Shown here: positions 17,923 to 43,808 of the stretch, piece by piece | Layout of the letters: each line of letters opens with the position of its first letter | Position numbering within the stretch: the first letter of the stretch is position 1 | Assembly: GCA_022800665.1 (NCBI GenBank) | Contig: JAAWQS010000017.1 | Location: 1 to 44,545, forward strand | From: Oscillospiraceae bacterium | GTDB taxonomy: Bacteria; Bacillota; Clostridia; Oscillospirales; Oscillospiraceae | Direction of reading: 5' to 3' | Length of the DNA stretch: 44,545 bases | Notes under the pieces: model-generated | Databases searched by the model: none | What the model was told of the DNA's origin: nothing | Seen by the model: the letters and a program-made list of their open reading frames with translations, nothing else | Made by a program: the position numbers and the translations under genes

Positions 17923-19176
17923 TTAATTTTCCGTAAACGGGTCGCTCTGCCCCTGCTCCGGCGGAACGGATACCAACACCGGGTCCTTCTTTTCCAGCGA
18001 AACCTTTTCCGGCGGCGCATCCGCCGGCGGCTCCGGATTCTCTGCCGGTTCCGGGGGCTGTCTGTGCTCCAGATTCCGGCCCGTCTCCGGATCGAACACA
18101 TGGACCGTACTGCCCCGGAAGGTAAAATGCAGAGGCATCCCATGGGCGTACCACCCGCCGGACTCCGCCTCTTCCTCCGACACCGGCACAACAATCACCG
18201 CATCCCGGCCTCCCACGTTCACATGGATATGTACCGCGCTGCCCATCATCTCCGACACATCCACCGACGCGGCCACGCCGCTGCGGTCCTCCGTCAGCAG
18301 GATGTGCTCCGGACGCACCCCCAGCGTCACGTCCTGGGACTGCACATCCCCTTCCAGCAGGCGGCGGCGCTTCTCCGGGGACAGGGCCACCTGCGCGCCC
18401 TCAAAGAACACCGCGTAGGCGTCCCCGGACCGCTCCAGCCGTGCGTTGAAAAAGTTCATCTGGGGGGTGCCGATGAACCCCGCCACAAAGAGGTTGGCCG
18501 GGTGGTGGAAGACCTCGTTGGGCGTTCCCACCTGCTGGACAAAGCCCTCTTTCATAATCACAATCCGGTCCCCCAGGGTCATGGCCTCCGTCTGGTCGTG
18601 GGTGACGTATATAAAGGTGGTGTTCACCTTCTGCCGCAGTTTGATGATCTCCGAGCGCATCTGATTGCGCAGCTTGGCGTCCAGGTTGGACAGCGGCTCG
18701 TCCATCAGAAACACCTGCGGCTCCCGGACGATGGCCCGCCCGATGGCCACACGCTGCCGCTGTCCGCCGGAGAGAGCCTTGGGCTTGCGCTTGAGCAGCT
18801 CCGTGATGTCCAGAATCTCCGCCGCCTCCCGCACCTTCTGGTCGATCACCCGCTTGGGGAATTTCCGCAGCCGCAGGCCGTAGGCAATATTGTCGTAGAC
18901 CGTCATGTGGGGGTAGAGGGCGTAGTTCTGGAAAACCATGGCGATGTCCCGGTCCTTGGGGGGGACTGTGTTCACCTTTTTGCCGCCGATGTACAGCTCT
19001 CCCTCGGTGATGGCCTCCAGACCCGCCACCATCCGCAGGGTGGTGGACTTGCCGCAGCCGGAGGGGCCGACCAGCACAATGAACTCCTTGTCCGCAATCT
19101 CCAGATCGAAAGCCTGCACCGCCACGACGGTGTTGTCATATACCTTTTTGATTTTTCGTAAGCTCAGACTCGCCAT
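17923..19176 (-). CDS. MalK/UgpC-type ABC transporter ATPase with Pro-rich tail
   Basis: A 417-residue ATPase of the sugar-importer (MalK/MsmX/UgpC) type. Walker A GPSGCGKST (about 37-45), signature LSGGQRQR, Walker B VFLMDEPLSNLD and the switch His in THDQ are intact, followed by the OB-fold domain (about 235-360) with GVRPEHI. The last ~50 residues are Pro/Glu-rich, unlike ordinary MsmX, and are unexplained. It is 2 nt after a MacB-like gene and downstream of two importer permeases, so in this operon one ATPase could serve both. The start has only a weak AGGT site, suggesting translational coupling. Confidence 0.9.
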   Translation of the reverse strand: MASLSLRKIKKVYDNTVVAVQAFDLEIADKEFIVLVGPSGCGKSTTLRMVAGLEAITEGELYIGGKKVNTVPPKDRDIAMVFQNYALYPHMTVYDNIAYGLRLRKFPKRVIDQKVREAAEILDITELLKRKPKALSGGQRQRVAIGRAIVREPQVFLMDEPLSNLDAKLRNQMRSEIIKLRQKVNTTFIYVTHDQTEAMTLGDRIVIMKEGFVQQVGTPNEVFHHPANLFVAGFIGTPQMNFFNARLERSGDAYAVFFEGAQVALSPEKRRRLLEGDVQSQDVTLGVRPEHILLTEDRSGVAASVDVSEMMGSAVHIHVNVGGRDAVIVVPVSEEEAESGGWYAHGMPLHFTFRGSTVHVFDPETGRNLEHRQPPEPAENPEPPADAPPEKVSLEKKDPVLVSVPPEQGQSDPFTEN

Positions 19177-19178
19177 AC

Positions 19179-20282
19179 CTAGTCACCTTTGTTTTGAAAT
19201 TCATGTTCCAGCCGCTCTTCCCTGCGCTTCTCCACAGCCATCTCCACCTTCTCCGGGATTTTGGCCTTGGCAAACCGATAGGTCTTCACCGTGTACCGGA
19301 TGAGGTTCACCAGGGCAAAGCACGCCGGATAGAACGCAAACAACGCCGCCAGCGCTGTCAGCAGCGCAGCGTAGTCCTCGGTCAGCCGGACGGCGTTCTC
19401 CCAGTAGGGATAGATCACGCCGTTGGTCCGCATGGAGCGGTTCCCGAAATCCCGGATGACCTGCCACAGATGGCCCAGCGCATAGCGGCTGCTGTTCTCC
19501 ACGATGTCGCCGCTGCCCACGGAAAAGTTCTCCTTCACCAGATTCTGTGCAAATCCGGAGATGGGGTCCGGCATGACCAGCTCGTAGCAGCTGATATCCG
19601 TGTCCTCCAGCAGCCGGGAGAGGGCGGAGTAGGACATAAAAATGCCGCTGTCGCCGCCGTAGGCTTTTTTCGTGGCAAAGTCGTCCTCCCTGGCCGCCAC
19701 GCCGGACACCACGAAGTCCTTGCCGTTGATGGTCATGGGCATTCCCGCCAGGTCCACTGCGCCGAAGAGCTTCCAGGCGGTCTCCTCGTCCAGCACCACC
19801 AGATCGTCCATCAGGTCCCCGCCCTGGATATAGGAGCCGCTCCGCAGGACCAGGGGGTGGAAGAAGAAGAAATCTCCCCCCACGCCTATGGCCCCCACAG
19901 AGGCGGAGACGCCGTTGTTGCCCACGGCGGTGACGGTCCCCATACCGCAGTATGCGTCCAGGTACAGACTGCCGTTTTCCGGCGCCTCCAGGGACTGCTC
20001 CACCAGCTTGCTGTCCAGGGTCTGGCGGAACTTGAAGATATCCTCCTCCGTCTTCCCCTGGCCCACCGGGAGAAAGCACCCGATCTGTGCAAAGCGGACG
20101 TCCGTCCCGCCCCGGAACCGCTCCGCGGCGGTCACGGACACCAGTGCGCGGCGCACGACCCCCAGTCCAATCAGCGACGCGGCGGAGGCCAGCAGCAGCG
20201 CTGCAATCAACGCCGTCATAAACCACTGCTTGAAGCCGAAGCCTCTGACAGCGGCCCCCATCCGGCTCAGAATCTTCCTCAT
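19179..20282 (-). CDS. MacB/FtsX-like protein with only two membrane helices
   Basis: A 367-residue membrane protein. Helix 1 is at about 19-42, then a ~250-residue extracellular domain in the style of the MacB periplasmic core domain (two-lobed, with the VLDEETAWKLFGAVDLAGMP strand-helix typical of that domain), and helix 2 at about 300-325. Ordinary MacB/FtsX permeases have four helices; two are missing here. It overlaps the adaptor gene by ATGA, so the pair is likely translated together. Role inferred: partner of the coiled-coil adaptor. It has no nucleotide-binding domain of its own. Confidence 0.75.
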   Translation of the reverse strand: MRKILSRMGAAVRGFGFKQWFMTALIAALLLASAASLIGLGVVRRALVSVTAAERFRGGTDVRFAQIGCFLPVGQGKTEEDIFKFRQTLDSKLVEQSLEAPENGSLYLDAYCGMGTVTAVGNNGVSASVGAIGVGGDFFFFHPLVLRSGSYIQGGDLMDDLVVLDEETAWKLFGAVDLAGMPMTINGKDFVVSGVAAREDDFATKKAYGGDSGIFMSYSALSRLLEDTDISCYELVMPDPISGFAQNLVKENFSVGSGDIVENSSRYALGHLWQVIRDFGNRSMRTNGVIYPYWENAVRLTEDYAALLTALAALFAFYPACFALVNLIRYTVKTYRFAKAKIPEKVEMAVEKRREERLEHEFQNKGD

Positions 20283-22372
20283 GACGGATTCTCCACCATT
20301 CTCACCTGGGTACCGGCATCCAGAGGTTTGCTGGACGTGGTAATCACGTAGTCGTTTGCCGCCAGGCCGGAGACGGCAGCGTTGTTGTCGTCCTGGGCCA
20401 GCACCTGCACATCCGCGCGGGTGGCTGTGTACCGGTTGCCCAGGGGCGTGCTCTTGCTGGTCACGACCAGCACAAAGTTTCCGTTGGTGTCCTCCCGCAG
20501 CGCGCTCTTGGGGATGATGGTGTCATAGTTGGCGCTGCGCTGGCCGATGGACAGGCTGATATTTGTCCCCGCCTCGATGTCGCCAGTGATGCGGAAAACC
20601 AGCAGCCGTTTCTGTCCGCCGCCCTCCGGGTCGGCGGTGATGGCCTCCAGGGTGGCCTGGATGTCGTTGCCCCAGTAATAATTGCTCACATCGGCGGCAT
20701 CGCCGATCTTTACCTGCTTGGCTTGCTCGTTGGTCACGGAGACCTTGATGGTAAAGCCACGGTCCACCACGTCGATGACCGCCATGGCCTCGCCGGGCTT
20801 GGTGTCCTTGCCGGCGGTGACGTTGATGGACTTGACCACGCCCGCCACCTTGGATTTGATCTCTGTCTCGGTGGTGTCGGCCTGATACTTGGCCACCAGC
20901 TCCCGCTGCTGCTCGATTTTCAGCCGCTGGGATTCCAGGTCCAGGTTGTCCATCTGCTGGGAGATATCCTTTCCGGAGAGAGCCTCCTCCAGCTCCCGCT
21001 GCTTGCTGTCCACAGTCTCCACAGCGGCTTTATAGACCTCCTGCTTCTTCTCCAGCTCCTTCAGCTTCTCGTCCAGCTCCGTCACGGCGGCGTCCTGCTC
21101 CCGCTTGGAGGACTCATAGACTTTAATCTGCTCCTTCAGCTGGCTGTTTGCGCTGGATGCGGCGTCCAATCTGGCCTGGGCGTCCCGGAGCTGGGACTGG
21201 GCGGCGGACAGGTCCGCCTGGGCCTTGTCCAGCTTGTTCTGGATATTCTGACGCTTGCTGTCCGCCGTGCCGTCCGCATTGCTGGCATCCGCCCTGGCTT
21301 CCTGGAGGGCTGTCTGCTTTGCCCGCACATCCGCCTGCTTCTCGCTGACCGCTGCCTGCTTTGTGGCAATCGTTTCCTCGTCTTTTTTCAACACATTATA
21401 GGCGTTCTGCCAGTCTGTCAGCCCCGGCGTATCCTCCGGCGTCTGGGCCAGAAACGCCTCAATATAGCTCTTCAGCTGGGTCCGGTCGCTCTCGCTGGCG
21501 TCGGGGTAGACCCCGCGCACCGCTGCAATCAGACTGTTGTAGGTGTCCCGGTAGGCTATGTAATCGGTGTTCAGGGTGGTCTGGGCGGCGTTCAGTTCCG
21601 CCTGAGCCGCACTCAGCGCGGACTGGGCTGTGTCCAGTGCGGTCTGGGCTGTGGAAATCGCCTTGTCGTGGTTGACCTCGCCGGTGGTATTCAGCTCGCC
21701 AAGCTGCTCCCGGTATCCGTCCGCCGCCGTCTCCAGCTCCTTGATCTTGTTATTCAGCTCATCCACCTTGCTTTTGGCCTCGGTATACTCCTCGCTGCTC
21801 TCCTGCGCCGCTTTCAGCTCCCCCAGCAGCAGCTCCAGCTGGCTCTGCTGAGTCTTTGCGCTGGCAAGATTGCCCTTGGCATAGGAAATCTCCGTATCAG
21901 AGACTTTGTTGGTGTCCCGGTCGTGGATTGCTTTCTCCAGGTCCAGACGAAGATTTTTGACCTTGAGGTCGTTTTCCGCATAGGTCTTGGAAAACGTAAG
22001 GATCTGTTTCTGATAGGCCAGCTCCGCCTCCTGGAGCGCGTTCTGGGCATCCTTCATCTCCTGGCTCTCCATGTCGCCCATGACGAACAGCAGCGTCCCC
22101 TCCTCCACCGTGTCCCCGGCCTTCACGCACACGGAGCGGACCTCCCTGGTCTGCTCCATGACGACCTCGTAGCTCTCGTTGGCGGCCACAGTGCCGCTGC
22201 CCCGAATCTTCGCGTTGATCGTGCCGGACTGCACCACCTGGGTCGCCACTTCCGGCAGGGAGTGGTTCATGATAGTCTGGGAGAAAAAGGTCAGCAGCAG
22301 CATAATCACCAGGAAAATGATGGCTATGGTTTTAATTAGTTCCCGTTTTTTTGATTTTTCCTGTACATCCAC
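20279..22372 (-). CDS. HlyD/MacA-type adaptor with very long coiled coil
   Basis: A 697-residue membrane-fusion type adaptor. It has one membrane helix (about 14-33), a short lipoyl/barrel half (about 40-100: GTINAKIRGSGTVAANESY, VKAGDTVEEGTLL), a coiled coil from about 105 to 490 broken near the middle, and the second lipoyl half plus beta-barrel and MP domains (about 500-697: KVAGVVKSINVTAGKDTKPG). The hairpin is several times longer than in MacA. The start is GTG with AAGGAGG 9 nt upstream. It ends in an ATGA overlap with the MacB-like gene and lies 18 nt after importer permease B. Extracellular reach in a Gram-positive is unexplained. Confidence 0.88.
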   Translation of the reverse strand: MDVQEKSKKRELIKTIAIIFLVIMLLLTFFSQTIMNHSLPEVATQVVQSGTINAKIRGSGTVAANESYEVVMEQTREVRSVCVKAGDTVEEGTLLFVMGDMESQEMKDAQNALQEAELAYQKQILTFSKTYAENDLKVKNLRLDLEKAIHDRDTNKVSDTEISYAKGNLASAKTQQSQLELLLGELKAAQESSEEYTEAKSKVDELNNKIKELETAADGYREQLGELNTTGEVNHDKAISTAQTALDTAQSALSAAQAELNAAQTTLNTDYIAYRDTYNSLIAAVRGVYPDASESDRTQLKSYIEAFLAQTPEDTPGLTDWQNAYNVLKKDEETIATKQAAVSEKQADVRAKQTALQEARADASNADGTADSKRQNIQNKLDKAQADLSAAQSQLRDAQARLDAASSANSQLKEQIKVYESSKREQDAAVTELDEKLKELEKKQEVYKAAVETVDSKQRELEEALSGKDISQQMDNLDLESQRLKIEQQRELVAKYQADTTETEIKSKVAGVVKSINVTAGKDTKPGEAMAVIDVVDRGFTIKVSVTNEQAKQVKIGDAADVSNYYWGNDIQATLEAITADPEGGGQKRLLVFRITGDIEAGTNISLSIGQRSANYDTIIPKSALREDTNGNFVLVVTSKSTPLGNRYTATRADVQVLAQDDNNAAVSGLAANDYVITTSSKPLDAGTQVRMVENPS

Positions 22373-22390
22373 AGTTTTCGTCCTCCTTCT

Positions 22391-23278
22391 TTATCCCTTG
22401 ACAGAGCCCTGATGGGCAATGCCCTCCACCAGATAGTCCTCCCCGTGGAGGAACAGCAGCAGGCAGGGGACCATATAGATTGTGGCAATGGCAAAGGCCA
22501 GCCCCACCTCGTTGGCATTGATGGTGGAGAGATAGACGCTCAGCGGCTGCTGGGCCGCGTCTTTGAGCAGGATAATGGGCTGCTCCACCATGTTCCAGTA
22601 ATCAATGAACACCAGAATCGCCACCGAGTACAGCGCGCTGCGGCACTGGGGCAGGCAGATGTCCGTGAAGACCTGCCACTCGCTGGAGCCGTCCAGCTTG
22701 GCGGCCTCGATCAAAGACGACGGAATCCGCCGCATGGACTTGGTCAGCAAAAACACCGAAAAGGGTGCGAACATGCCGGGGAAGATAATGGCCCACCGGG
22801 TATCCAGCAAGCCCAGCCAGTCGCTGACCAGATAGTTGGGCACCAGCGTCACCTGGTAGGGCATCAGCATCAATATGACGTAGAAGAAGAACAAAAAGCT
22901 GCGCACCTTCCCCCGCCAGCGGGTGAAGCCGTAGGCCGTCAGCGACGCCACCGCCAATTGCAGCAGCACGATGGGCGCCACCAGTATCACTGAATTCCAG
23001 AATTTCAGCAGGTAATCCGGACTTTTAATCAGCGTGGTGATGTACTGGCTGAATGTCACCTTGTCCGGGATGAACTTCAGGTTCACCGTCTCGGCAATGT
23101 AGGTTTTCCCCTCGCTGCCAGAGGCGTTCTTGAATACCTGCCCATAGTTGGCGCTGATCTCGCTCTGGGTCATGAAGGAGTTGGTGATGGTCAGCGCCGT
23201 GGGCATCAGGAACGCCAGGGCGAAGCAGGCCGCTATGATTGTCAGAATCGTGCGGGCCAGATAGCGGTTCTTTACCAT
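22391..23278 (-). CDS. ABC sugar-type permease, MalG-like
   Basis: A 295-residue permease of the CUT1 class, MalG type. Six membrane helices are visible and the EAA loop, IEAAKLDGSSEWQVFTDICL, has the conserved Gly that contacts the ATPase. Like other MalG types it has a long first external loop. The start at 23278 comes 1 nt after the stop of the preceding permease, with GAGGG before it, so translation is coupled. The substrate is unknown. Confidence 0.92.
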   Translation of the reverse strand: MVKNRYLARTILTIIAACFALAFLMPTALTITNSFMTQSEISANYGQVFKNASGSEGKTYIAETVNLKFIPDKVTFSQYITTLIKSPDYLLKFWNSVILVAPIVLLQLAVASLTAYGFTRWRGKVRSFLFFFYVILMLMPYQVTLVPNYLVSDWLGLLDTRWAIIFPGMFAPFSVFLLTKSMRRIPSSLIEAAKLDGSSEWQVFTDICLPQCRSALYSVAILVFIDYWNMVEQPIILLKDAAQQPLSVYLSTINANEVGLAFAIATIYMVPCLLLFLHGEDYLVEGIAHQGSVKG

Positions 23279-23279
23279 A

Positions 23280-24245
23280 TTATCCCTCAACGTCCTTTCC
23301 GAAAATATCCTCCGCCTTGAACAGCAGGGCAATCAACGCCACCATCACCGCCGCCAGCAACACCGCCGCAGAGGCCATTTTCTGGTAGTCCGGCTGTTCA
23401 AAGACATTGTTCATAAAGTGCTGCATCATATACAGTCCGGTGTAGGGATAGTTCCCCGTGAGGAGGAAAATCTCCCGGAACACCTTAAAGGAGTTGATGA
23501 TGGACAGAATCGCCACAAACAGCACCGTGGGGGAGAGATAGCGCAGTTTGATGTTAAAAAACTTGTGGGCCGCGGACGCCCCCTCCACGTCGGCCACCTC
23601 CAGCAGCTCTTTGGGGATGTTGTTCAGCGCCGCCATAAAGAGGATCATGTTATAGCCCAGGTTCTTCCACAGAAACAACGCCACAATTACCAGCAGGCAA
23701 TAGGGGGAGTTGAGCCAGTCCACCGGGTCCACACCGAAATGGGCCAGCGTCACGTTCAGCGTCCCCCGGTAGTGGAAGACCACCTGCCAGATCAGCACCA
23801 CCGACGCCACGGGCACCATCATGGGGCTGAGAAAGAAGGTGCGGAACAGGCTCTTGCAGGGGATCCGGCACTCCAGCAGCAAGGCCAACGCCAGGCTCAG
23901 GACCACCGCCAGAGGTACGGCGATGACGGAAAACATGGCGGTATTTTTGGCCGCCGTCTGGAAGGAGGAGTTTTTCAGCACGGCGATGAAGTTGTCCAGC
24001 CCCACAAACTCCGGGTTGAGGGGGCTGCGGATGACGGAGTAGTACACCACCACCAGAAAGGGCGCGATGAAAAACAACGCCACCCCGGTCACGCTGGGGC
24101 CGAGAAAACCGATGCTGCACAGCAGGTCCTTCACCTGGGCGTTTCCGCCGGCCCACAGTCTCCCAACATCCCGGACGCCCCGGACCGTCCGACGGGACGG
24201 TCCGGGGTCCTGTTTTTTCTTCTGTAAGCGATTAACGGTTTTCAT
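23280..24245 (-). CDS. ABC sugar-type permease, MalF-like
   Basis: A 321-residue CUT1-class permease, MalF type. Basic N-terminus of about 40 residues, then six helices and the EAA loop EVADVEGASAAHKFFNIKLR. It overlaps the binding-protein gene by 14 nt, and the MalG-type gene follows after 1 nt. Together the two permeases form the channel of an importer whose ATPase is the MalK-type protein at the end of the operon. Confidence 0.92.
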   Translation of the reverse strand: MKTVNRLQKKKQDPGPSRRTVRGVRDVGRLWAGGNAQVKDLLCSIGFLGPSVTGVALFFIAPFLVVVYYSVIRSPLNPEFVGLDNFIAVLKNSSFQTAAKNTAMFSVIAVPLAVVLSLALALLLECRIPCKSLFRTFFLSPMMVPVASVVLIWQVVFHYRGTLNVTLAHFGVDPVDWLNSPYCLLVIVALFLWKNLGYNMILFMAALNNIPKELLEVADVEGASAAHKFFNIKLRYLSPTVLFVAILSIINSFKVFREIFLLTGNYPYTGLYMMQHFMNNVFEQPDYQKMASAAVLLAAVMVALIALLFKAEDIFGKDVEG

Positions 24246-26766
24246 TGATGTATAGATTCACACGGTCCTGAATGAGCTTGACCGTCTCGTCCAGGCTCTT
24301 GTCCCCGGAGAAGTATGCGCCCGCCTGATCGGTGATGATCTCAAACATGCTGGTATCGTAGTTGACGACGGAGTCGATGGCATTGTACAGCTCCATGACC
24401 TGGTCGTACTCCTGCTGGGTGGTGGCGACGATGTCGATATTCAGGCCGCCCCAGCCCCAGCCGCTCTTGGTCTGTTCAATGGGATTGCCCTCGGCGTCCA
24501 GGATGTTTTTGCCGTCCGCATCGGTGATGTACTCCTTCTCCATGGCATCCGCAGCCATCTTGTCAAAGGACGCCTTGTTGCTGGGGAAGTACCAGTAGCC
24601 GCCGTACCGGCTGTCGTCCTCCTTGGGCAGAAGCAGCTGCCGGACAAAGGACCACGCGCCCTCCTTGTCTTTACAGGTACTGGAAATTGCCAGGCCCTGG
24701 GAGATGTTGAACGCGCTGCCCACGCCGCCGTCCTCTCTGGGGTAGCCCACAAAGGAGATGTACTCTCCCGGCTTGACCCGTTGTGCGGGGGATTCGTCTA
24801 TCATCCCTCCCATGGAAACGCCGGTGGCAATATAAACGCCGCCGCTGCCGCCGCCAGCTCCGTATTCCGAGTCAAGCGTATAGAGAGCCTCGCTGCCGCC
24901 GAAGATGGCCTCGTACATCTGGATGTCGTTGAAGCCGGACAGATACATGGTCTGAAGCATCTGCCGTCCGTTGGCAATGCGGGTGGGTTCGTCCTCCGCT
25001 TCCTCCCAGTTGTAATTCTCATAGTCGAAATCATCCGGGAAGCTGCTGCAGAACTCCAGCGCCGCTTTGAAGGCATCGCTGTCGAAGTGGCTCTCGCCGG
25101 TCTCCCAGTCCACATAGCTGTCCAGATTCATGGACATGATGGAGGAGAGCATACCGGACTTGGTATCCGTTTCGCCGAAGATGGCGCAGCCCTCCGGCAT
25201 GGTGGCCAGGGTGTCCTGGAGCTCCTGGAGGGTCCAGCTCATCCGGTCCCCCACAACCTTGCGTGCGCCGATGGCGGTGACAATGGCAAAGGAGTCAAAC
25301 ACCTGGTAGAGCTTGCCGTTGTCCTCCGCGGCCTTGAAGACGTTTTCCATCAGGCTTTCCCGCGTGATCTCCGGGTCCCCGTCGATCATGGGCCACAGGT
25401 CCTCCAGGTACCCCTTGGCGGCGTAGCGGCTGATGGGGATATCGCTGGTACAGAGGATGTCGGGGATGTTCCCGGCGACAATCTCCGTGTTCAGCTTGGT
25501 CATGCCCGCCTGCCGGTCGTCGGCGGTGTTGTACTCGGAGTAATCCCGGATTTCAATCCGGTACTTGTCGCTCTTCTTGTTGAAATTGATGATGCTGGCG
25601 CGGATCTGCTGGTCGATGTACATACCGGCGCAGGTGAGGATGGTCTTGTCCGCCAGGGCGGAGGCGTCGGCGGCGGTGAGCAGGGCGATCTCCGTCTTGC
25701 TGCCCTCGCTGCCCCAGGTGCGGGTCATCGCCATAACCCGTCCATCCTCCAGGAAGGAGAAGAACTCCAGGTCGTCCTTGTTGATATCGGCTCCGCTCCA
25801 GCTCAGCAGCCGTTCGCCGCTGCTGGCCCCGTCCTTAAAGCCGTAGAGGGAGTCGCCGCTGTCGTAGTAGAAGAGGTAGTCCCCTGTGCCGTCATAGAAG
25901 GTGTTGGCATTGATGGGGAGGGGGTACTCGTCTCCCCACTGCTTGCCCTCCAGGTCAATGGCCCGCAGGGTGGTGGCGGGCTCCTCCAGGTCCCGGTTAT
26001 AGTACCGGCTGGCGACTCTGCCGTCGCTGAGCCGGACCAGGTCCCAGCCATCGCCCTCCAGCGTAAAAAGGACGCTGCCGTCTTTGATCACGGCCACGCC
26101 GGATTTGCCGTCTTCCCCATTATAGCAGGTATAGAGGTTGCCGCTGTCATCCATGAGGGTACTGCTGGTATAGGCTGCGCTGAGCAGGGACTGCACATCG
26201 CCAATCTCTAACCGCTGCAGCTCCGTACCGGTGGAATCCAGCTGCCGCTGGACCTGCTTCTCCTCGTTGGTCTGGTACTGCCACTTGTCGTCCTTGGACT
26301 CGTCAAAGCCCTCCGGAAGATCAAAGGAATAGACCACCGCGCGCTCCGTCACCCAGAGGGTGCCGTCGGCCCCGGCGCGGATGCCGTCGATGCTGTACCA
26401 GCCGTCGCCGTCCGCCATCTCGTAGGCGGGCTGGAAGTTCTCCAGCTCTGCGGCCTCACCGCCGTCCAGAGGGACGCGGTAGATGGCGGTTTTGGAGTCA
26501 TATTGGGTGTATGTCTCGCCGGTATCGGGGTCCGTGGCCTCGGTTTCGGCGCTGGTGTCGGCCACGATATAGGCGTTCTTGCCGTCGCAGCAGCCGTCGC
26601 TGATGTAGTCCACTTCCAGGCCCAGGTCCATGAACTCCGGCACGTAGACGATGCCGCTGAGCTGGTCGGCTTCGCCGCTGTCCTTGCCGCCGCCGCAGGC
26701 GGCCAGGCCCAAAACGATGCACAGAGCCAGCAGCAGAGCCGTCAGCCTGTTGGTATGTTTTCTCAT
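24232..26766 (-). CDS. large solute-binding lipoprotein with N-terminal propeller-like domain
   Basis: An 844-residue lipoprotein, lipobox LGLAAC with the acylated Cys24. The first ~350 mature residues show repeated strand motifs (IDGIRAGADGTLWVTERAVV, then DDSGNLYTCYNGEDGK, then the LSDGRVASRY and LEDGRVMAMT blocks) like a beta-propeller; the second half is an extracellular sugar-type binding protein, e.g. DNGKLYQVFDSFAIVTAIGA and NISQGLAISSTCKDKEGAWSF. Usual binding proteins are ~420 residues, so this is a two-domain form. A close paralogue sits alone at 29761-32214. RBS GAGGAGG before the ATG. First gene of the chimeric operon. Confidence 0.9.
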   Translation of the reverse strand: MRKHTNRLTALLLALCIVLGLAACGGGKDSGEADQLSGIVYVPEFMDLGLEVDYISDGCCDGKNAYIVADTSAETEATDPDTGETYTQYDSKTAIYRVPLDGGEAAELENFQPAYEMADGDGWYSIDGIRAGADGTLWVTERAVVYSFDLPEGFDESKDDKWQYQTNEEKQVQRQLDSTGTELQRLEIGDVQSLLSAAYTSSTLMDDSGNLYTCYNGEDGKSGVAVIKDGSVLFTLEGDGWDLVRLSDGRVASRYYNRDLEEPATTLRAIDLEGKQWGDEYPLPINANTFYDGTGDYLFYYDSGDSLYGFKDGASSGERLLSWSGADINKDDLEFFSFLEDGRVMAMTRTWGSEGSKTEIALLTAADASALADKTILTCAGMYIDQQIRASIINFNKKSDKYRIEIRDYSEYNTADDRQAGMTKLNTEIVAGNIPDILCTSDIPISRYAAKGYLEDLWPMIDGDPEITRESLMENVFKAAEDNGKLYQVFDSFAIVTAIGARKVVGDRMSWTLQELQDTLATMPEGCAIFGETDTKSGMLSSIMSMNLDSYVDWETGESHFDSDAFKAALEFCSSFPDDFDYENYNWEEAEDEPTRIANGRQMLQTMYLSGFNDIQMYEAIFGGSEALYTLDSEYGAGGGSGGVYIATGVSMGGMIDESPAQRVKPGEYISFVGYPREDGGVGSAFNISQGLAISSTCKDKEGAWSFVRQLLLPKEDDSRYGGYWYFPSNKASFDKMAADAMEKEYITDADGKNILDAEGNPIEQTKSGWGWGGLNIDIVATTQQEYDQVMELYNAIDSVVNYDTSMFEIITDQAGAYFSGDKSLDETVKLIQDRVNLYINENR

Positions 26767-26903: not shown

Positions 26904-27596
26904 CTATGTCTGCTGATCGGAATTTTTGATACAGAGGGGATCGGCGCTGTTGTTCGGCGGTTTTGCTACGCAGGAATGCAGTCCGTCGATGTGTTCGTTC
27001 AGGCTTGGGGATATGCTGTGCCACATGGGATCAAGGATGAAGTCAATCCCCTCCCGCCGCGCGTGCTTTGCCGCCGGGACAAAATCGCTGTCTCCCGCAA
27101 TTAAAACAATCTGGGAAACCTGCCTTTTATATGCCAGGGAGGCAATATCCAGGCCCAAACGCATATCAACGCCCTTCTGTTTGATGTCAAGATAAAAATC
27201 TGTCTCCTTCAGGTCATCCACTGTAATTGTGCGCCTGCACAATTTTTTGACTGCATCGGGCCGTAACATGTACGAACCAGAGCTTTCCAGCGGCTCGCCT
27301 CTCCGAACGGCAACCTTTCTCTTGGAAGCCAATTCCGATATAAATTCCATCTGCCATTTGTACTGAGGCGATTTAAGCAGAGATACTGTCTTTTGCGTGA
27401 GGGGATGAAATACCGTTTTATCAGACGGCGGACAGTCATAGTAGAAGATCCGGTACAGCTCGCCGCCCTCCTTTGCAACATGCCTCCTGCAATACTTTAT
27501 CAGCTCAATCGCTCGGTCCTTTGGCGATTTTTCCCCGAAAAGAAGATATGCCTGACGCTGATAGAATGCGCCGTCAACCAATATCGCAGTAATCAT
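26904..27596 (-). CDS. NYN/PIN-like domain nuclease, LabA/DUF88 type
   Basis: A 230-residue protein with a NYN domain, a PIN-like RNase fold. The acidic metal-site residues are in ILVDGAFYQRQ near the start, VDMRLGLDIASLAY in the middle and AGDSDFVPAAKHA, with the SGDSDF-type motif. Known members cut RNA or act in small-RNA decay; the target here is unknown. The ATG at 27596 follows GGAGGGAATT, whereas the longer frame runs into a leader hairpin. The gene is clearly more AT-rich than its neighbours, which suggests recent transfer. It diverges from the FapA gene. Confidence 0.85.
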   Translation of the reverse strand: MITAILVDGAFYQRQAYLLFGEKSPKDRAIELIKYCRRHVAKEGGELYRIFYYDCPPSDKTVFHPLTQKTVSLLKSPQYKWQMEFISELASKRKVAVRRGEPLESSGSYMLRPDAVKKLCRRTITVDDLKETDFYLDIKQKGVDMRLGLDIASLAYKRQVSQIVLIAGDSDFVPAAKHARREGIDFILDPMWHSISPSLNEHIDGLHSCVAKPPNNSADPLCIKNSDQQT

Positions 27597-27613
27597 AATT
27601 CCCTCCAAAATAA

Positions 27614-27668
27614 AAGCCCTTGGCCTCGAACTTTCCCATATACCGGGAAAATCTACTGCCAAGGGCTT
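27614..27668 (-). ncRNA. structured leader in the 5' UTR of the NYN gene
   Basis: On the minus strand AAGCCCTTGGC pairs with GCCAAGGGCTT (11 bp), then a 7+7 internal loop, then TTTCCC with GGGAAA closing a 7-nt loop. It is followed by TTTTATTTT and then the ribosome site GGAGGG of the NYN gene. A second small hairpin, ATACAG(TTTGC)CTGTAT, lies just upstream at 27675-27691. The layout fits an attenuator or an RNA target of the encoded nuclease. Confidence 0.6.
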
Positions 27669-27706
27669 AATTTACATACAGGCAAACTGTATTGCTGTAC
27701 ATTCAT

Positions 27707-27735
27707 ATTTTATTTGCCAGACTCAGTTTTGTCAA
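27707..27735 (-). promoter_or_regulatory. strong promoter of the NYN gene
   Basis: On the minus strand a perfect TTGACA (27730-27735) and TAAAAT (27707-27712) are 17 bp apart. The transcript would begin about 100 nt before the start codon and carry both leader hairpins. Confidence 0.85.
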
Positions 27736-27793
27736 TGCCTCATATGCCGAGGCATACGTCCCGCGGCATTTCTGTGCTTGCGGCATCCGAGGA

Positions 27794-27822
27794 TTGACAT
27801 ACAGCCGCGGCCCATGTACAAT
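27794..27822 (+). promoter_or_regulatory. promoter of the fapA-like gene
   Basis: TTGACA (27794-27799) and TACAAT (27817-27822) are 17 bp apart, 27 bp before the start codon. Confidence 0.8.
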
Positions 27823-27849
27823 AGAAGATAATTCAAGAAGGAAGCGACG

Positions 27850-29661
27850 GTGCTCATCATGTCAATCAAGAATAAATTCACGAACCTTCTGTTCGGTGAG
27901 AAACCCGAAGAGCCGGAACCGGCCCGCAAAGAGCCGGAACCCGTTGACGAGGTTCCGCCGGAGCTTGCCAGCCCCAGCGCGTTCAGCATGTCCCTTTTGG
28001 AGCTGTCCGAGGACCACCCCATTTTCCGCCTCCACGCCCAGCGGCGGCACGAGGCCGGCTATCTGCCCGCGCCCCGCATCTGTCTGGACGAGGAGGGCGT
28101 ACTGTCGCCGGAGATGGTGCACAGGGAGCTGAACCGGCTGCGGACGGTTCTGATTGCGGCGTGCAGCGCACGGCTGAAGGCCGCCCAGGGGACCAAAAAG
28201 AAGGAAGAGAAGAAAAAGAAGGACGACAAGAAAAAGGACCCGAAGGACGAGAAAAAGAAGCACGAGAAGAAGAACGAGAAAAAGAATGGGGCCGCGCAGG
28301 ACGAGGGACCTGCGGTTCTGGACGCCCAGCCGTTTCTCTACCTATCCGCCGACAAGCTCTATGCGTGGATGCTGGTATTCCCGCCGGTGGGGAAGGGCGC
28401 GGAGCTGAGCCGCGAAATGCTGTATGAGGCCCTGGTGTCGCAGGAGATCACCTACGGCGTGGACACCCGTCTGATCGACCAGCTGTCCCACAATGACAAA
28501 CGGTACTTCAACTTGTATCTGGTCGCCAAGGGGAAACCGGCCTTTGACGGCAAGAACGGCAACATTGTGGACAATTTCCCCCGGAAGATACAGCGGGTGC
28601 TGGAGGTGGACGAATTTGACCAGGTGGATTACACGTCCCTCAACCTCATCCACAACGCGGACAAAGGGGAAGAAATCTGCCACTTAATCAAGCCCACGGA
28701 GGGCGAGCCGGGCCGGTCGGTGCAGGGGGAGGAAATCCCGGCCAAGAGCGGGAAGCCGGTGCCGCTGCCCCGCGGGAAGAACACGGAGATCAGCGAGGAC
28801 GGCACCCAGCTGCTGGCGTCCATCGCGGGGTCGGTGGAGTTCACCGGGAATGTGTTTCAGGTCAAACCGGTTCTGGAAATTGCAGGGGACGTGGACTTTT
28901 CCACCGGAAGCATCAACTTCCTGGGGGATATCAACATCCACGGCAACGTCCTCAGCGGCTTTACGGTGCAGGCCGGGGGCAACATCAACATTGACGGCGT
29001 GGTGGAGGCGGGCAGCTCTGTGGAGGCCGGCGGCGATCTGGCTGTGGTCAAGGGGATTTTAGGCGACGGCACCACCACGGTCCAGGCCCGCGGGAGTATT
29101 TTCTCCAAATATGTGGAAAACGCGGTCATCTGCGTCCGGGAGAACTTGCAGACGGACTGCATCATCAGCAGCAGCGTATACTGCGGCGGGGAGGTGCTGG
29201 TACAGTCTGGCCGCGGCAAGATTATGGGCGGCTGGGTCTGGGCGGCCCGGAGAATCTGCGCCAACGCGGTGGGGTCCCAGTCGGAGTGCAAGACCACCGT
29301 CGCCCTGGGCGGACGGCCCTGCGCCAGCTTTGAACGGGAGATAGTCCAGCGGGAGGTGAACGCCCTGGAGATGGAGATGGAGAAGCTGGAGTGCCAGCCG
29401 GACAGTCCGGTCAAGACGTCCCTGCTGAGCAAGACCAGGCTGAAGCTGACGGCGGCGGAGATGAAGATGCGGCAGCTGGAGGAGCGGATGCAGCGCATGG
29501 CCCCGGAGGAGAAGCGGGAGGGGCAGGGCAACGAGCGGCTGGAGTGCAGCGTGGCCTATCCTGGGACTAAAATCCGCTTCGGGGACGACGCCATCCGCCT
29601 GCACCAGATATACCGGCGCTGCGTCGCCACAAAGGTCCACGGCGAGATTCTTTTGATGTAG
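27850..29661 (+). CDS. FapA/DUF342 family protein with Lys-rich linker
   Basis: A 603-residue protein of the FapA (DUF342) family. The C-terminal two thirds, from about residue 190, have the family right-handed beta-helix (e.g. GNVFQVKPVLEIAGDVDF, then NINIDGVVEAGSSVEAGGDL) and a C-terminal coiled coil (about 500-555). An unusual segment at about 115-150 is nearly all Lys, Glu and Asp. Members are called flagellar assembly proteins but are widespread without flagella and may be polar or envelope scaffold proteins. Start is probably the GTG at 27850, 7 nt after AAGGA, though the ATG at 27859 is possible. Confidence 0.85.
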   Translation: MLIMSIKNKFTNLLFGEKPEEPEPARKEPEPVDEVPPELASPSAFSMSLLELSEDHPIFRLHAQRRHEAGYLPAPRICLDEEGVLSPEMVHRELNRLRTVLIAACSARLKAAQGTKKKEEKKKKDDKKKDPKDEKKKHEKKNEKKNGAAQDEGPAVLDAQPFLYLSADKLYAWMLVFPPVGKGAELSREMLYEALVSQEITYGVDTRLIDQLSHNDKRYFNLYLVAKGKPAFDGKNGNIVDNFPRKIQRVLEVDEFDQVDYTSLNLIHNADKGEEICHLIKPTEGEPGRSVQGEEIPAKSGKPVPLPRGKNTEISEDGTQLLASIAGSVEFTGNVFQVKPVLEIAGDVDFSTGSINFLGDINIHGNVLSGFTVQAGGNINIDGVVEAGSSVEAGGDLAVVKGILGDGTTTVQARGSIFSKYVENAVICVRENLQTDCIISSSVYCGGEVLVQSGRGKIMGGWVWAARRICANAVGSQSECKTTVALGGRPCASFEREIVQREVNALEMEMEKLECQPDSPVKTSLLSKTRLKLTAAEMKMRQLEERMQRMAPEEKREGQGNERLECSVAYPGTKIRFGDDAIRLHQIYRRCVATKVHGEILLM

Positions 29662-41618: not shown

Positions 41619-43808
41619 TCACTCCCGTTTCACAAGTTGTTGAATTACGCGCTTGAGCAGCTCAATGTCCAGCGGCTTGGGTACATGGGCGTCCATACCG
41701 GCGTCCAAAGCCGCTTTCTCGTCCTCCGCAAAAGCATTTGCGGTCATTGCGATAATGGGAATTGCCGCCGCGCCGCTCCGCGGCAAGGCGCGGATAGCCC
41801 TGGTCGCGTCGTATCCGTTCATGACCGGCATTTGTACGTCCATCAGAATAGCGTCAAACGTCCCTGCCTCCGCCTGGGAAAACCGCTCCAGCGCCAGCTG
41901 GCCGTTCCCGGCAACCTCGCAGGAGGCCCCCTCCAGGTCCAGCAGCTCCGTCAGGATTTCCGCGTTGATTTCATTGTCCTCTGCAGCCAGGAACCGCATT
42001 CCCTCCAGGCTGCAGCCCTCGGTTGGGGCGGCTGCGCTGCCAGTCTTATGCAGGTCCGCCGTGCCGTCCTCCGCTATCCGCAGGTCCAGTTCCACAACAA
42101 AGAGGCTGCCCCGGCCCACCTCGCTGGAGACCGCAATGGTTCCGCCCATCAGCTCCACAATGCTCTTGGTGATGGCCATGCCCAGTCCGGTCCCCTGCAC
42201 CTTGTTGGTCGTGCTGTTTTCCGCACGGGTAAAGGCGTCAAAAATCTTCTCCAGGTATTCCGGCGTCATGCCGTATCCGTTGTCCTCCACCTCAATCCGG
42301 ATGCGCTCATACTGGCTGGACCGCTGCTCCTGGCCGGTGATTCGCAGCCAGATGGAGCCGCCCTCCTGGGTATATTTCACCGCGTTGGAGAGCAGATTGA
42401 GCAGGACCTGGTTGATCCGCGTCTCATCGCCCACAAAGTATTGATGGCGGATTCCAGATATCTCCAGATGAAACTCCTGGTTCCTTGCCTTGGCCATGGG
42501 CTGGATAATGGCGTCCAGAGCGGCGGTAATGCCGTCCAGAGCAAACTGCTCGTAGTTGAGGACCACTTTGCCGCTCTCGATCTTGGACACGTCCAGCACG
42601 TCGTTGATCAGACTGAGCAGATGCTGTCCGGACGCCATAATCTTTGCGGAATATTCCCGCACCTTCGCCGGATTCTCCGCATCCTTTGCCAGCAGCGCCG
42701 TAAAGCCGAGGACCGCGTTCATAGGCGTGCGGATGTCGTGGGACATATTGGAGAGGAATGTGGTCTTGGAGCTGTTGGCAATCTGGGCGGCCCGGAGCGC
42801 CTCGGACAGCTGCTTGTTGTACAACTCCCGCTCCGCCTCCCGTTCCTGCCGGACCCTGCGCTGCTGTCTCTGGCTGAGATAATACAGGAGGCAGCACAGG
42901 AAAAACGCCACCAGCATGACGCCAACCACGACAAACATGTTGTGGTTGACTGTCCGGCCCTCCTGCTGGATGGCCTCCACAGGCACATAGCCCACCAAGT
43001 AGATGGTGCCGTCGTTGACCGACCACATATAATTAAGTGCGCTCTGGTCCCGGATGTTGTGGTAAAACAGGATATTCTTTCCATCCGTCAGGCACTGCCG
43101 GACCTCCCGCTGCAAATTCTCCTCCTTGATATTGTTCGCCCGGTAAAAGTCCGTCAGATTCAGGTGGCCCGCATCCCGTTTCCCCATCCCCTTGGGCTTG
43201 AGGACAAATCTCTGGCTCTCTGCGTCCATAATATACAGAGATGCCTGTTTATTGTAAAAACCGGCGGCGGGAAGGGAGCTGTCCAAAAAATCATACACGT
43301 ATTCAATATACAGCCACGCAATCTCCGTCCCGTCCCTGACTACGGGGCACTTCAGGGTATAAGCCCATGTCCCCATATAGTTGAGGTAGGACTGGGACAC
43401 GGGCAGACCGTCTACCGTACCGCCTGCGGAAAAATCCAGTCCCGCCTCGGAAAAGACGTCCCCGGTATTGGAAACGCCCTCCGATTCCCCGGAGAGGATC
43501 AGGGACATCTTTACCATTGTCTGGTTTTTCTCATAGGAGCGGATATATTCCTCCGGGCTTTCCGACTTTGCAATTTCGCGGGCAATCAGGGTTTGAAACT
43601 CTGCTTCATTTTTGAAGATGGCCTCAATGGTGCATTCGATCAGCTCCAGGCTCTCGCTTAAATTCTGAATGGCGGAGTCAGACATTTCCCGCGATATTTT
43701 TCCCGCCACAGAGAAGACGACGGCTCCCAGTATGCAAAATACCCCCAAAATGGGAAGCAGAAGCGGGAAGCCCTGCCGCTCCGTACCGTGTTTCGCCTTC
43801 CATCTCAT
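41619..43808 (-). CDS. hybrid sensor histidine kinase with receiver domain
   Basis: A 729-residue membrane kinase. Helix 1 (about 15-36), a Cache-like external sensor (about 40-285), helix 2 (about 288-310), HisKA with the phospho-His in MSHDIRTPMNAVLG (near 357), HATPase boxes (LLNLLSNAVKYT, DNGYGM, GTGLGM), and a C-terminal receiver with phospho-Asp in AILMDVQMPVMNGYD and Lys in VPKPLD. The receiver has no DNA-binding domain attached, so output must go to another protein. The binding-lipoprotein gene follows at once and may be its ligand receptor. Promoter at 43890-43919. Confidence 0.93.
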   Translation of the reverse strand: MRWKAKHGTERQGFPLLLPILGVFCILGAVVFSVAGKISREMSDSAIQNLSESLELIECTIEAIFKNEAEFQTLIAREIAKSESPEEYIRSYEKNQTMVKMSLILSGESEGVSNTGDVFSEAGLDFSAGGTVDGLPVSQSYLNYMGTWAYTLKCPVVRDGTEIAWLYIEYVYDFLDSSLPAAGFYNKQASLYIMDAESQRFVLKPKGMGKRDAGHLNLTDFYRANNIKEENLQREVRQCLTDGKNILFYHNIRDQSALNYMWSVNDGTIYLVGYVPVEAIQQEGRTVNHNMFVVVGVMLVAFFLCCLLYYLSQRQQRRVRQEREAERELYNKQLSEALRAAQIANSSKTTFLSNMSHDIRTPMNAVLGFTALLAKDAENPAKVREYSAKIMASGQHLLSLINDVLDVSKIESGKVVLNYEQFALDGITAALDAIIQPMAKARNQEFHLEISGIRHQYFVGDETRINQVLLNLLSNAVKYTQEGGSIWLRITGQEQRSSQYERIRIEVEDNGYGMTPEYLEKIFDAFTRAENSTTNKVQGTGLGMAITKSIVELMGGTIAVSSEVGRGSLFVVELDLRIAEDGTADLHKTGSAAAPTEGCSLEGMRFLAAEDNEINAEILTELLDLEGASCEVAGNGQLALERFSQAEAGTFDAILMDVQMPVMNGYDATRAIRALPRSGAAAIPIIAMTANAFAEDEKAALDAGMDAHVPKPLDIELLKRVIQQLVKRE

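Follow-up and report, generated by a model that had tools for sequence, protein, structure and literature searches.

HlyD- and MacA-type adaptors and MacB ectodomains are usually treated as parts of exporters. In MacAB, YknXYZ and Spr0693-0695, as described in the available text of PMC5985334, the exporter combines an FtsX part with four membrane helices with an ATPase of its own, and has neither MalFG permeases nor a binding protein. ATP-binding cassette (ABC) importers of the CUT1 type that share an MsmX/MsmK ATPase, such as AraNPQ and YtcQ-YtcP-YteP of B. subtilis (PMC11466899, available portion), are built from a binding protein, two BPD_transp_1 permeases and a MalK-type ATPase often supplied in trans, and have no adaptor or MacB-like subunit. 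Here we analyze a 44,545-nucleotide (nt) stretch of an Oscillospiraceae bacterium (the window; contig C79 of an assembly whose 194 contigs total 3.33 Mb at 95.4% completeness) in which both sets of parts occur together. Six open reading frames (ORFs) on the minus strand, at 17923-26766, encode a binding lipoprotein, MalF, MalG, HlyD, a MacB-like protein and MalK. Unlike the exporters, this six-gene unit has MalFG permeases and a binding protein, and it has the subunits that CUT1 importers lack, including all five ordinary importer sets read in its own genome.

One relative has been touched experimentally. Locus L202, on a contig of 3,843,301 bases whose source organism appears to be Clostridium thermocellum, encodes CbpC (862 bits to the crystal sequence) with MalF, MalG, HlyD and a 473-residue MacB_PCD protein. 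Transporter C of C. thermocellum (CbpC; clo1313_2783-6) thus resembles the window unit in keeping these five parts together. It differs in that its MacB-like protein has six predicted membrane helices where that of the window has two, its binding protein (460 residues in L202) is without the propeller-like part, and its HlyD reads as two overlapping ORFs (L202:7137-8487) rather than one. The available text of PMC9601137 (Yan et al. 2022) does not discuss the exporter-like parts of transporter C; a figure legend on the transporters lists an 'acra' gene, with the operon not named in that text. In the open-licence literature we found no description of the unit as a class, which is not proof that none exists.

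With somewhat better than even confidence, we read the unit as an ABC importer of type I (MalFGK-type) into which adaptor subunits are built; these would act as a non-motor scaffold, guide or wall tether and not as a pump. Gene order, domain content, a predicted two-helix topology and conservation are what we observe; the remainder we infer from them. The order of the six genes and all five junction lengths given in the initial annotation proved exact, two of the junctions being overlaps (14 and 4 nt) and three being gaps (1, 18 and 2 nt). Pfam and NCBIfam support the six assignments except for the MacB-like protein, which matches MacB_PCD only and has no FtsX domain. All parts of a MalFGK/CUT1-like importer are present: two BPD_transp_1 permeases with EAA loops (an EAA-like EVADVEG in MalF and EAAKLDG in MalG, both by eye), a lipoprotein binding protein, and a MalK-type ATPase with OB/TOBE domains and intact Walker A, LSGGQ and Walker B motifs. 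MalK is the only ATPase of the unit, as had been annotated. MalG is highly conserved, at 43-90% identity to 37 chosen relatives; the ORF list opens its frame earlier, at a TTG, and its length is counted here from the ATG. By its parts the unit is a type I importer, lacking the FtsX part and own ATPase of the MacB family and having the adaptor features for which we tested.

The association of these genes is general. The MacB-like protein was used as the query of a genome collection, the best 80 of 87 relatives were kept, and the neighbours in these 80 loci were searched with the other proteins of the window and rescored with profiles. Because the query fixed the MacB-like protein alone, what stands beside it is independent of the selection. 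Where 300 nt or more are available upstream, HlyD is the gene directly upstream in 79 of 79 loci, never more than 158 nt away and in 75 of them no more than 50 nt; in the remaining locus, L070, there is nothing upstream to read. MalG is found within 1.5 kb of HlyD in 68 of 68 loci that extend 3 kb or more, and MalF in 61 of 61 that extend 4.2 kb or more. The gaps have medians of 8, 32 and 0 nt, and 66 of the 80 loci have a binding protein next to the unit. Thus the gene-order search that the initial annotation had called for upholds its central claim of one unit mixing importer and exporter-type parts, the neighbours recurring in every locus with enough sequence.

The reverse search gave the same picture. 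At E <= 1e-60 a MalG profile marks the importer-type machine as common in Clostridia, in 51 of 393 genomes of the class and 63 of 200 of the window's family, and also reaches 10 of 398 genomes of the phylum. Among the 63 MalG places that the class and phylum searches list besides the window, HlyD is detected by profile in 59 and the MacB-like protein in 54. Places without an HlyD match are L188 and L200, at contig edges, and L192 and L206, which have short adaptor-like proteins of 122 and 252 residues with a similar membrane helix (by eye). The MacB-like protein was not found at L188, L191 and L200 (contig edges) or at L192, L193, L203, L205 and L206; that of L198 is matched by Pfam and missed by the profile. 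An HlyD or MacB-like neighbour was found for none of the ordinary MalG genes, eight in the stretches read and five in the window's own genome. In the 200 family genomes, compared by eye, the MacB-like type occurs in 57 and both types in 56, on the same contig in 49 of these 56. Linked MalG proteins fall into a single clade in a comparison of 36 rows with 13 ordinary ones (100/99), and the composition is kept despite altered gene order in L182, L183 and L195. The unit is spread across Clostridia and other classes of the phylum, C. thermocellum transporter C included, and bacteria of the gut and their kin are among its many carriers. Pairing of HlyD and the MacB-like protein with an importer is therefore general and not a quirk of one strain, and exporter-type parts are here a fixed part of an importer-type machine.

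A genomic accident, an assembly artefact or a strain-specific juxtaposition can accordingly be set aside as having next to no probability. The window assembly is in 194 contigs and most relatives are metagenome-assembled, which would favour such an origin, but the unit also occurs in six Butyrivibrio strains and Konateibacter massiliensis, whose records carry no metagenome-assembly mark, and on the 3.84 Mb contig of L202. Recurrence in 80 MacB-like loci and in the reverse MalG search refutes it.

The name 'MacB-like protein' holds for the ectodomain and fails for the permease. In the window protein the MacB periplasmic core domain is flanked by two membrane helices and followed by a long cytoplasmic C-terminal helix; an AF2 (AlphaFold2) model places the two membrane helices around the MacB ectodomain, and hydropathy gives two helices in 75 of 79 MacB-like rows. 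Pfam detects FtsX in 0 of 105 importer-linked MacB-like proteins (79 of the window's type and 26 with additional helices), whereas all 12 of 12 exporter proteins have it; the scan covered these 105 plus L061, L154 and L166, from a total of 134 linked units. Of the features of MacB (type VII) systems, the window protein has the periplasmic core and is without the four-helix FtsX part, the TM2-TM3 coupling loop with its helix and the dedicated ATPase. The protein is thus a MacB ectodomain held by two membrane anchors and not a MacB permease. In a tree of MacB-like proteins the two-helix proteins fall on one side of a branch and the exporters do likewise, which is not so for proteins with more helices; with several long branches and an arbitrary root, the tree carries no claim of a single origin of the pairing.

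Three observations concern individual MacB-like proteins. In L061 (9947-13225) the reading frame continues from the MacB-like protein into the signal of a lipoprotein and its binding protein, giving 1,093 residues with both domains recognized by Pfam. No other ORF in the stretches read fuses two unit profiles in this way, the other listed row (L179) being an exporter HlyD-ATPase ORF. The protein of L052 (9974-11644) has about 200 extra residues on the cytoplasmic side that resemble a HAD-type hydrolase (by eye). An exact KW[KE][YH]F C-terminus, possibly a docking tail, is found in 12 of 79 proteins (L048, L053, L057, L059, L067, L069, L072, L075-L077, L082 and L083), all from loci without an adjoining MalK.

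A hidden exporter ATPase beside the unit was considered and rejected. Of 134 importer-linked units, 1 has an ATPase of exporter type within 2 kb on its own strand, compared with 11 of 12 ordinary exporters. In that exception, L055 (12434-14777), the ATPase and a weak HlyD match are found 1.3 kb beyond the downstream side of the unit; the other row listed, L019, is a MalK truncated where its contig ends. The exporter controls (L170-L181) are weaker matches of the MacB-like profile, which reaches 169 of 393 genomes at E <= 0.001 and 100 bits in 26 of them, the window's own included. Fifteen weaker matches were fetched, of which three were importer-linked (L167-L169) and twelve without MalFG served as the control; other weak matches were examined only where the MalG search reached them. 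The control lacks MalFG by definition, and its FtsX and ATPase counts are independent of the selection. The initial annotation had held that finding the HlyD/MacB pair normally with its own ATPase elsewhere would overturn its reading, and these counts give the reverse. Because there is neither a coupling loop nor an adjoining exporter ATPase, a self-powered exporter is unlikely; coupled uptake and secretion, one of the mechanisms proposed at the outset, is weakened by the absence of FtsX from all 105 proteins and of the coupling loop from the window protein. All ten genomes searched that have a MalK-less unit encode a full-length MalK elsewhere at 57-64% identity, as expected for shared MsmK-type ATPases. 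The window's own genome has a second MalK ORF on C104 (L218; 398 residues in one frame, with a stretch with two flagged stops extending past that frame), and its five ordinary importer sets are without MalK in the stretches read.

The adaptor of the window has the N-terminal membrane helix (residues 9-37, with LTFFSQT...LPEV), lipoyl and barrel domains and helical hairpin of HlyD/MacA adaptors. The hairpin arms, at about 104-288 and 318-499, are each split into several helices, and the structure model has a pTM of 0.54. In linked adaptors the membrane helix carries 3.58 bits per column compared with 2.57-3.05 for folded parts of the ectodomain; in 13 exporter adaptors it carries 2.01 compared with 2.29 for the ectodomain. 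A loose helix motif, defined after inspection of the sequences, is found in 123 of 129 linked adaptors and in 1 of 12 exporter adaptors, a control that is small (12 of the 13 having a detectable helix) and more divergent (mean identity 25% versus 37% for linked adaptors). The linked set comprises 143 HlyD ORFs, among them fragments, one exporter ORF (L055) and 14 without a detectable N-terminal helix. Since this helix is the most conserved part of the adaptor and unlike that of exporter adaptors, it may well pack against MalFG. In L192 (5771-6136) the HlyD position is taken by the 122-residue protein, which has only a membrane helix of the adaptor kind and a short ectodomain; MalK comes after it, and there is no MacB-like protein.

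The binding lipoprotein of the window has an N-terminal signal with a lipobox cysteine (C24, invariant), about 350 residues of propeller-like repeats and, after these, a binding domain of cluster-1 type. A 56-row profile has CbpC as its best match in the PDB (7x0o, E 7.4e-38; next 1.6e-17), and weaker matches to PQQ-propeller profiles suggest that the N-terminal part is propeller-like. None to three binding proteins are detected beside the unit per locus. In loci of Oscillospiraceae type they lie upstream and in those of Butyrivibrio and Ruminococcus downstream; some Lachnospiraceae have them on both sides.

In the importer that we propose, lipoprotein binding proteins would hand ligand to MalF-MalG and the MalK/MsmK ATPase would power uptake. 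The HlyD-type adaptor would belong to the same complex with its conserved membrane helix against MalFG, its barrel and lipoyl domains would bind the MacB-like ectodomain by analogy with MacA-MacB, and its long helical hairpin would extend outward through the zone beneath the wall. The MacB-like protein, which has no FtsX part to couple it to an ATPase, would be a passive platform on which the adaptor and the binding proteins probably sit. Two results in the available text of PMC5985334 bear on the adaptor: SpMacA without its cytoplasmic region and membrane helix fails to stimulate the SpMacB ATPase, and YknX binds peptidoglycan. Of the three mechanisms offered initially, the tethered importer fits best, and an importer with a built-in non-motor envelope scaffold is the most likely reading, in which we infer the function of the scaffold. 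An importer with exporter-type parts and no export motor would be an undescribed kind, one that may reach into the cell wall. A more ambitious and rather unlikely version has the adaptor (arms of about 180 residues, about 27 nm if the helices are straight) and the MacB-like ectodomain forming a tube or cuff over MalFG, by which a long polymer or a bulky ligand would travel from beyond the peptidoglycan directly into the ATP-driven importer. If true, this would be a single-membrane counterpart of trans-envelope uptake systems, a MacAB-type machine with its motor swapped for MalFGK.

Several observations weigh against an importer with a scaffold. MalK adjoins the unit in just 25 of 80 loci, and 16 of 63 MalG places have no binding protein detected within 4.5 kb on the same strand. 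L192, L193, L203, L205 and L206, from the wider clade, have an adaptor or short adaptor-like protein and no detectable MacB-like protein, so the platform is dispensable there. The L061 fusion is a single metagenome-assembled locus. The conserved membrane helix suggests a partner without identifying it as MalFG. The transporter C mutant grows normally on glucose, cellobiose and Avicel in the available text of PMC9601137, and we have seen proof of transport for no member of the group.

The roles might also be reversed, MalFGK being the motor and HlyD with the MacB-like protein the output: the binding protein would sense a ligand, ATP would be spent, and movement would pass through the adaptor helix to do work outside the membrane, either remodelling the wall or exporting, while import would be slight or absent. 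We know of no importer that works in this way and hold the idea unlikely. Conservation of the adaptor membrane helix would fit it, as would the higher conservation of MalG (3.29 bits, 38 rows) than of the two binding-protein domains (1.72 and 2.29 bits, 56 rows; the row sets differ). MacB-type machines perform mechanical work outside the membrane according to the available text of PMC5985334, and in one study CbpC bound no sugar and had a blocked pocket (PMC9601137, available part). Sugar binding by CbpC is, however, disputed: an earlier study, as cited in the accessible part of a review, reports affinities of 0.28-0.49 uM for glucose and cellodextrins (PMC11212667). Importer-type EAA loops retained in both permeases (by eye) and lipoproteins adjoining 66 of 80 units also speak for uptake. 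A simple cellulose-derived sugar as substrate is not supported.

Two further readings were considered. An ordinary importer might merely share regulation with HlyD and MacB-like proteins that serve an FtsX exporter and ATPase encoded elsewhere, and the window's own genome does have a canonical HlyD-ATPase-FtsX exporter on contig C193. That set has its own adaptor, however, and the distinct helix motif of linked adaptors and the near absence of exporter ATPases (1 of 134 units) make this improbable. BceAB is a transporter that reports to a sensor kinase, and the unit could likewise report ligand or wall state. A histidine kinase and response regulator lie inside the distant unit L198 (6384-15049, between lipoprotein and MalF; by eye), a two-component system lies near the L193 unit on the other strand (by eye), and a hybrid histidine kinase with a receiver domain is encoded at 41619-43808 of the window, 15 kb from the unit. 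But the L198 arrangement was seen once and no family occurs in more than 3 of 69 scanned flanking proteins, and we regard signalling as very improbable. For this group, the automatic 'efflux' or 'multidrug export' annotation of such parts, exemplified by the 'acra' label in print, is probably wrong. The unit makes it possible to ask directly what adaptors do where there is no outer membrane, and whether movement or cargo can be passed across the wall by an ABC importer.

Table 1. Genes of the importer-type unit and neighbouring genes in the window.
Feature	Position	Strand	Profile matches and remarks
Solute-binding lipoprotein, 844 aa (amino acids)	24232..26766	-	SBP_bac_1 at residues 419-715, 25.8 bits (cut-off 26)
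MalF/UgpA-type permease, 321 aa	23280..24245	-	BPD_transp_1 49.0 bits; UgpA 93.6 bits, below equivalog cut-off
MalG-type permease, 295 aa from ATG	22391..23278	-	BPD_transp_1 62.1 bits
HlyD/MacA-type adaptor, 697 aa, GTG start	20279..22372	-	HlyD_3 29.8 bits; Biotin_lipoyl_2 30.4 bits
MacB-like protein, 367 aa	19179..20282	-	MacB_PCD 39.2 bits (cut-off 27)
MalK/MsmK-type ATPase, 417 aa	17923..19176	-	ABC_tran, OB_MalK and TOBE_2; UgpC subfamily 486.7 bits (cut-off 432)
NYN-domain protein	26904..27662	-	Upstream of the unit, 137 nt gap
Second binding lipoprotein, paralogous to the first, 817 aa	29761..32214	-	SBP_bac_1 19.8 bits, below cut-off

The NYN-domain gene (Table 1) is possibly cotranscribed with the unit; among the 69 flanking proteins scanned, no other has this domain. 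A promoter-like site at 27735-27707 agrees at 11 of 12 positions (a consensus match only), and such sites face both directions at 27707-27822. Together with a divergent FapA-domain gene, the NYN-domain gene (26904-29661 for the pair) separates the window's two binding-protein genes, which are adjacent in relatives such as L009 (250 nt apart), L015 (126 nt) and L017.

Flanking genes do not reveal the substrate, since no family recurs among the 69 proteins scanned. These were drawn from 107 first flanking proteins, the 38 left out being short ORFs, near-repeats, the window's own downstream gene and two unit members (L192, L198); the near-repeats include a gene family found upstream in 13 Lachnospiraceae-type loci. 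Among the best 25 of 78 families, the most frequent are Transglut_core (3) and pyruvate kinase, GH5, GGDEF and GDPD (2 each). Glycerophosphodiester phosphodiesterase-like genes (by eye) lie near the distant units L203 (3993-4832) and L201 (4996-5733), a weak hint at the substrate.

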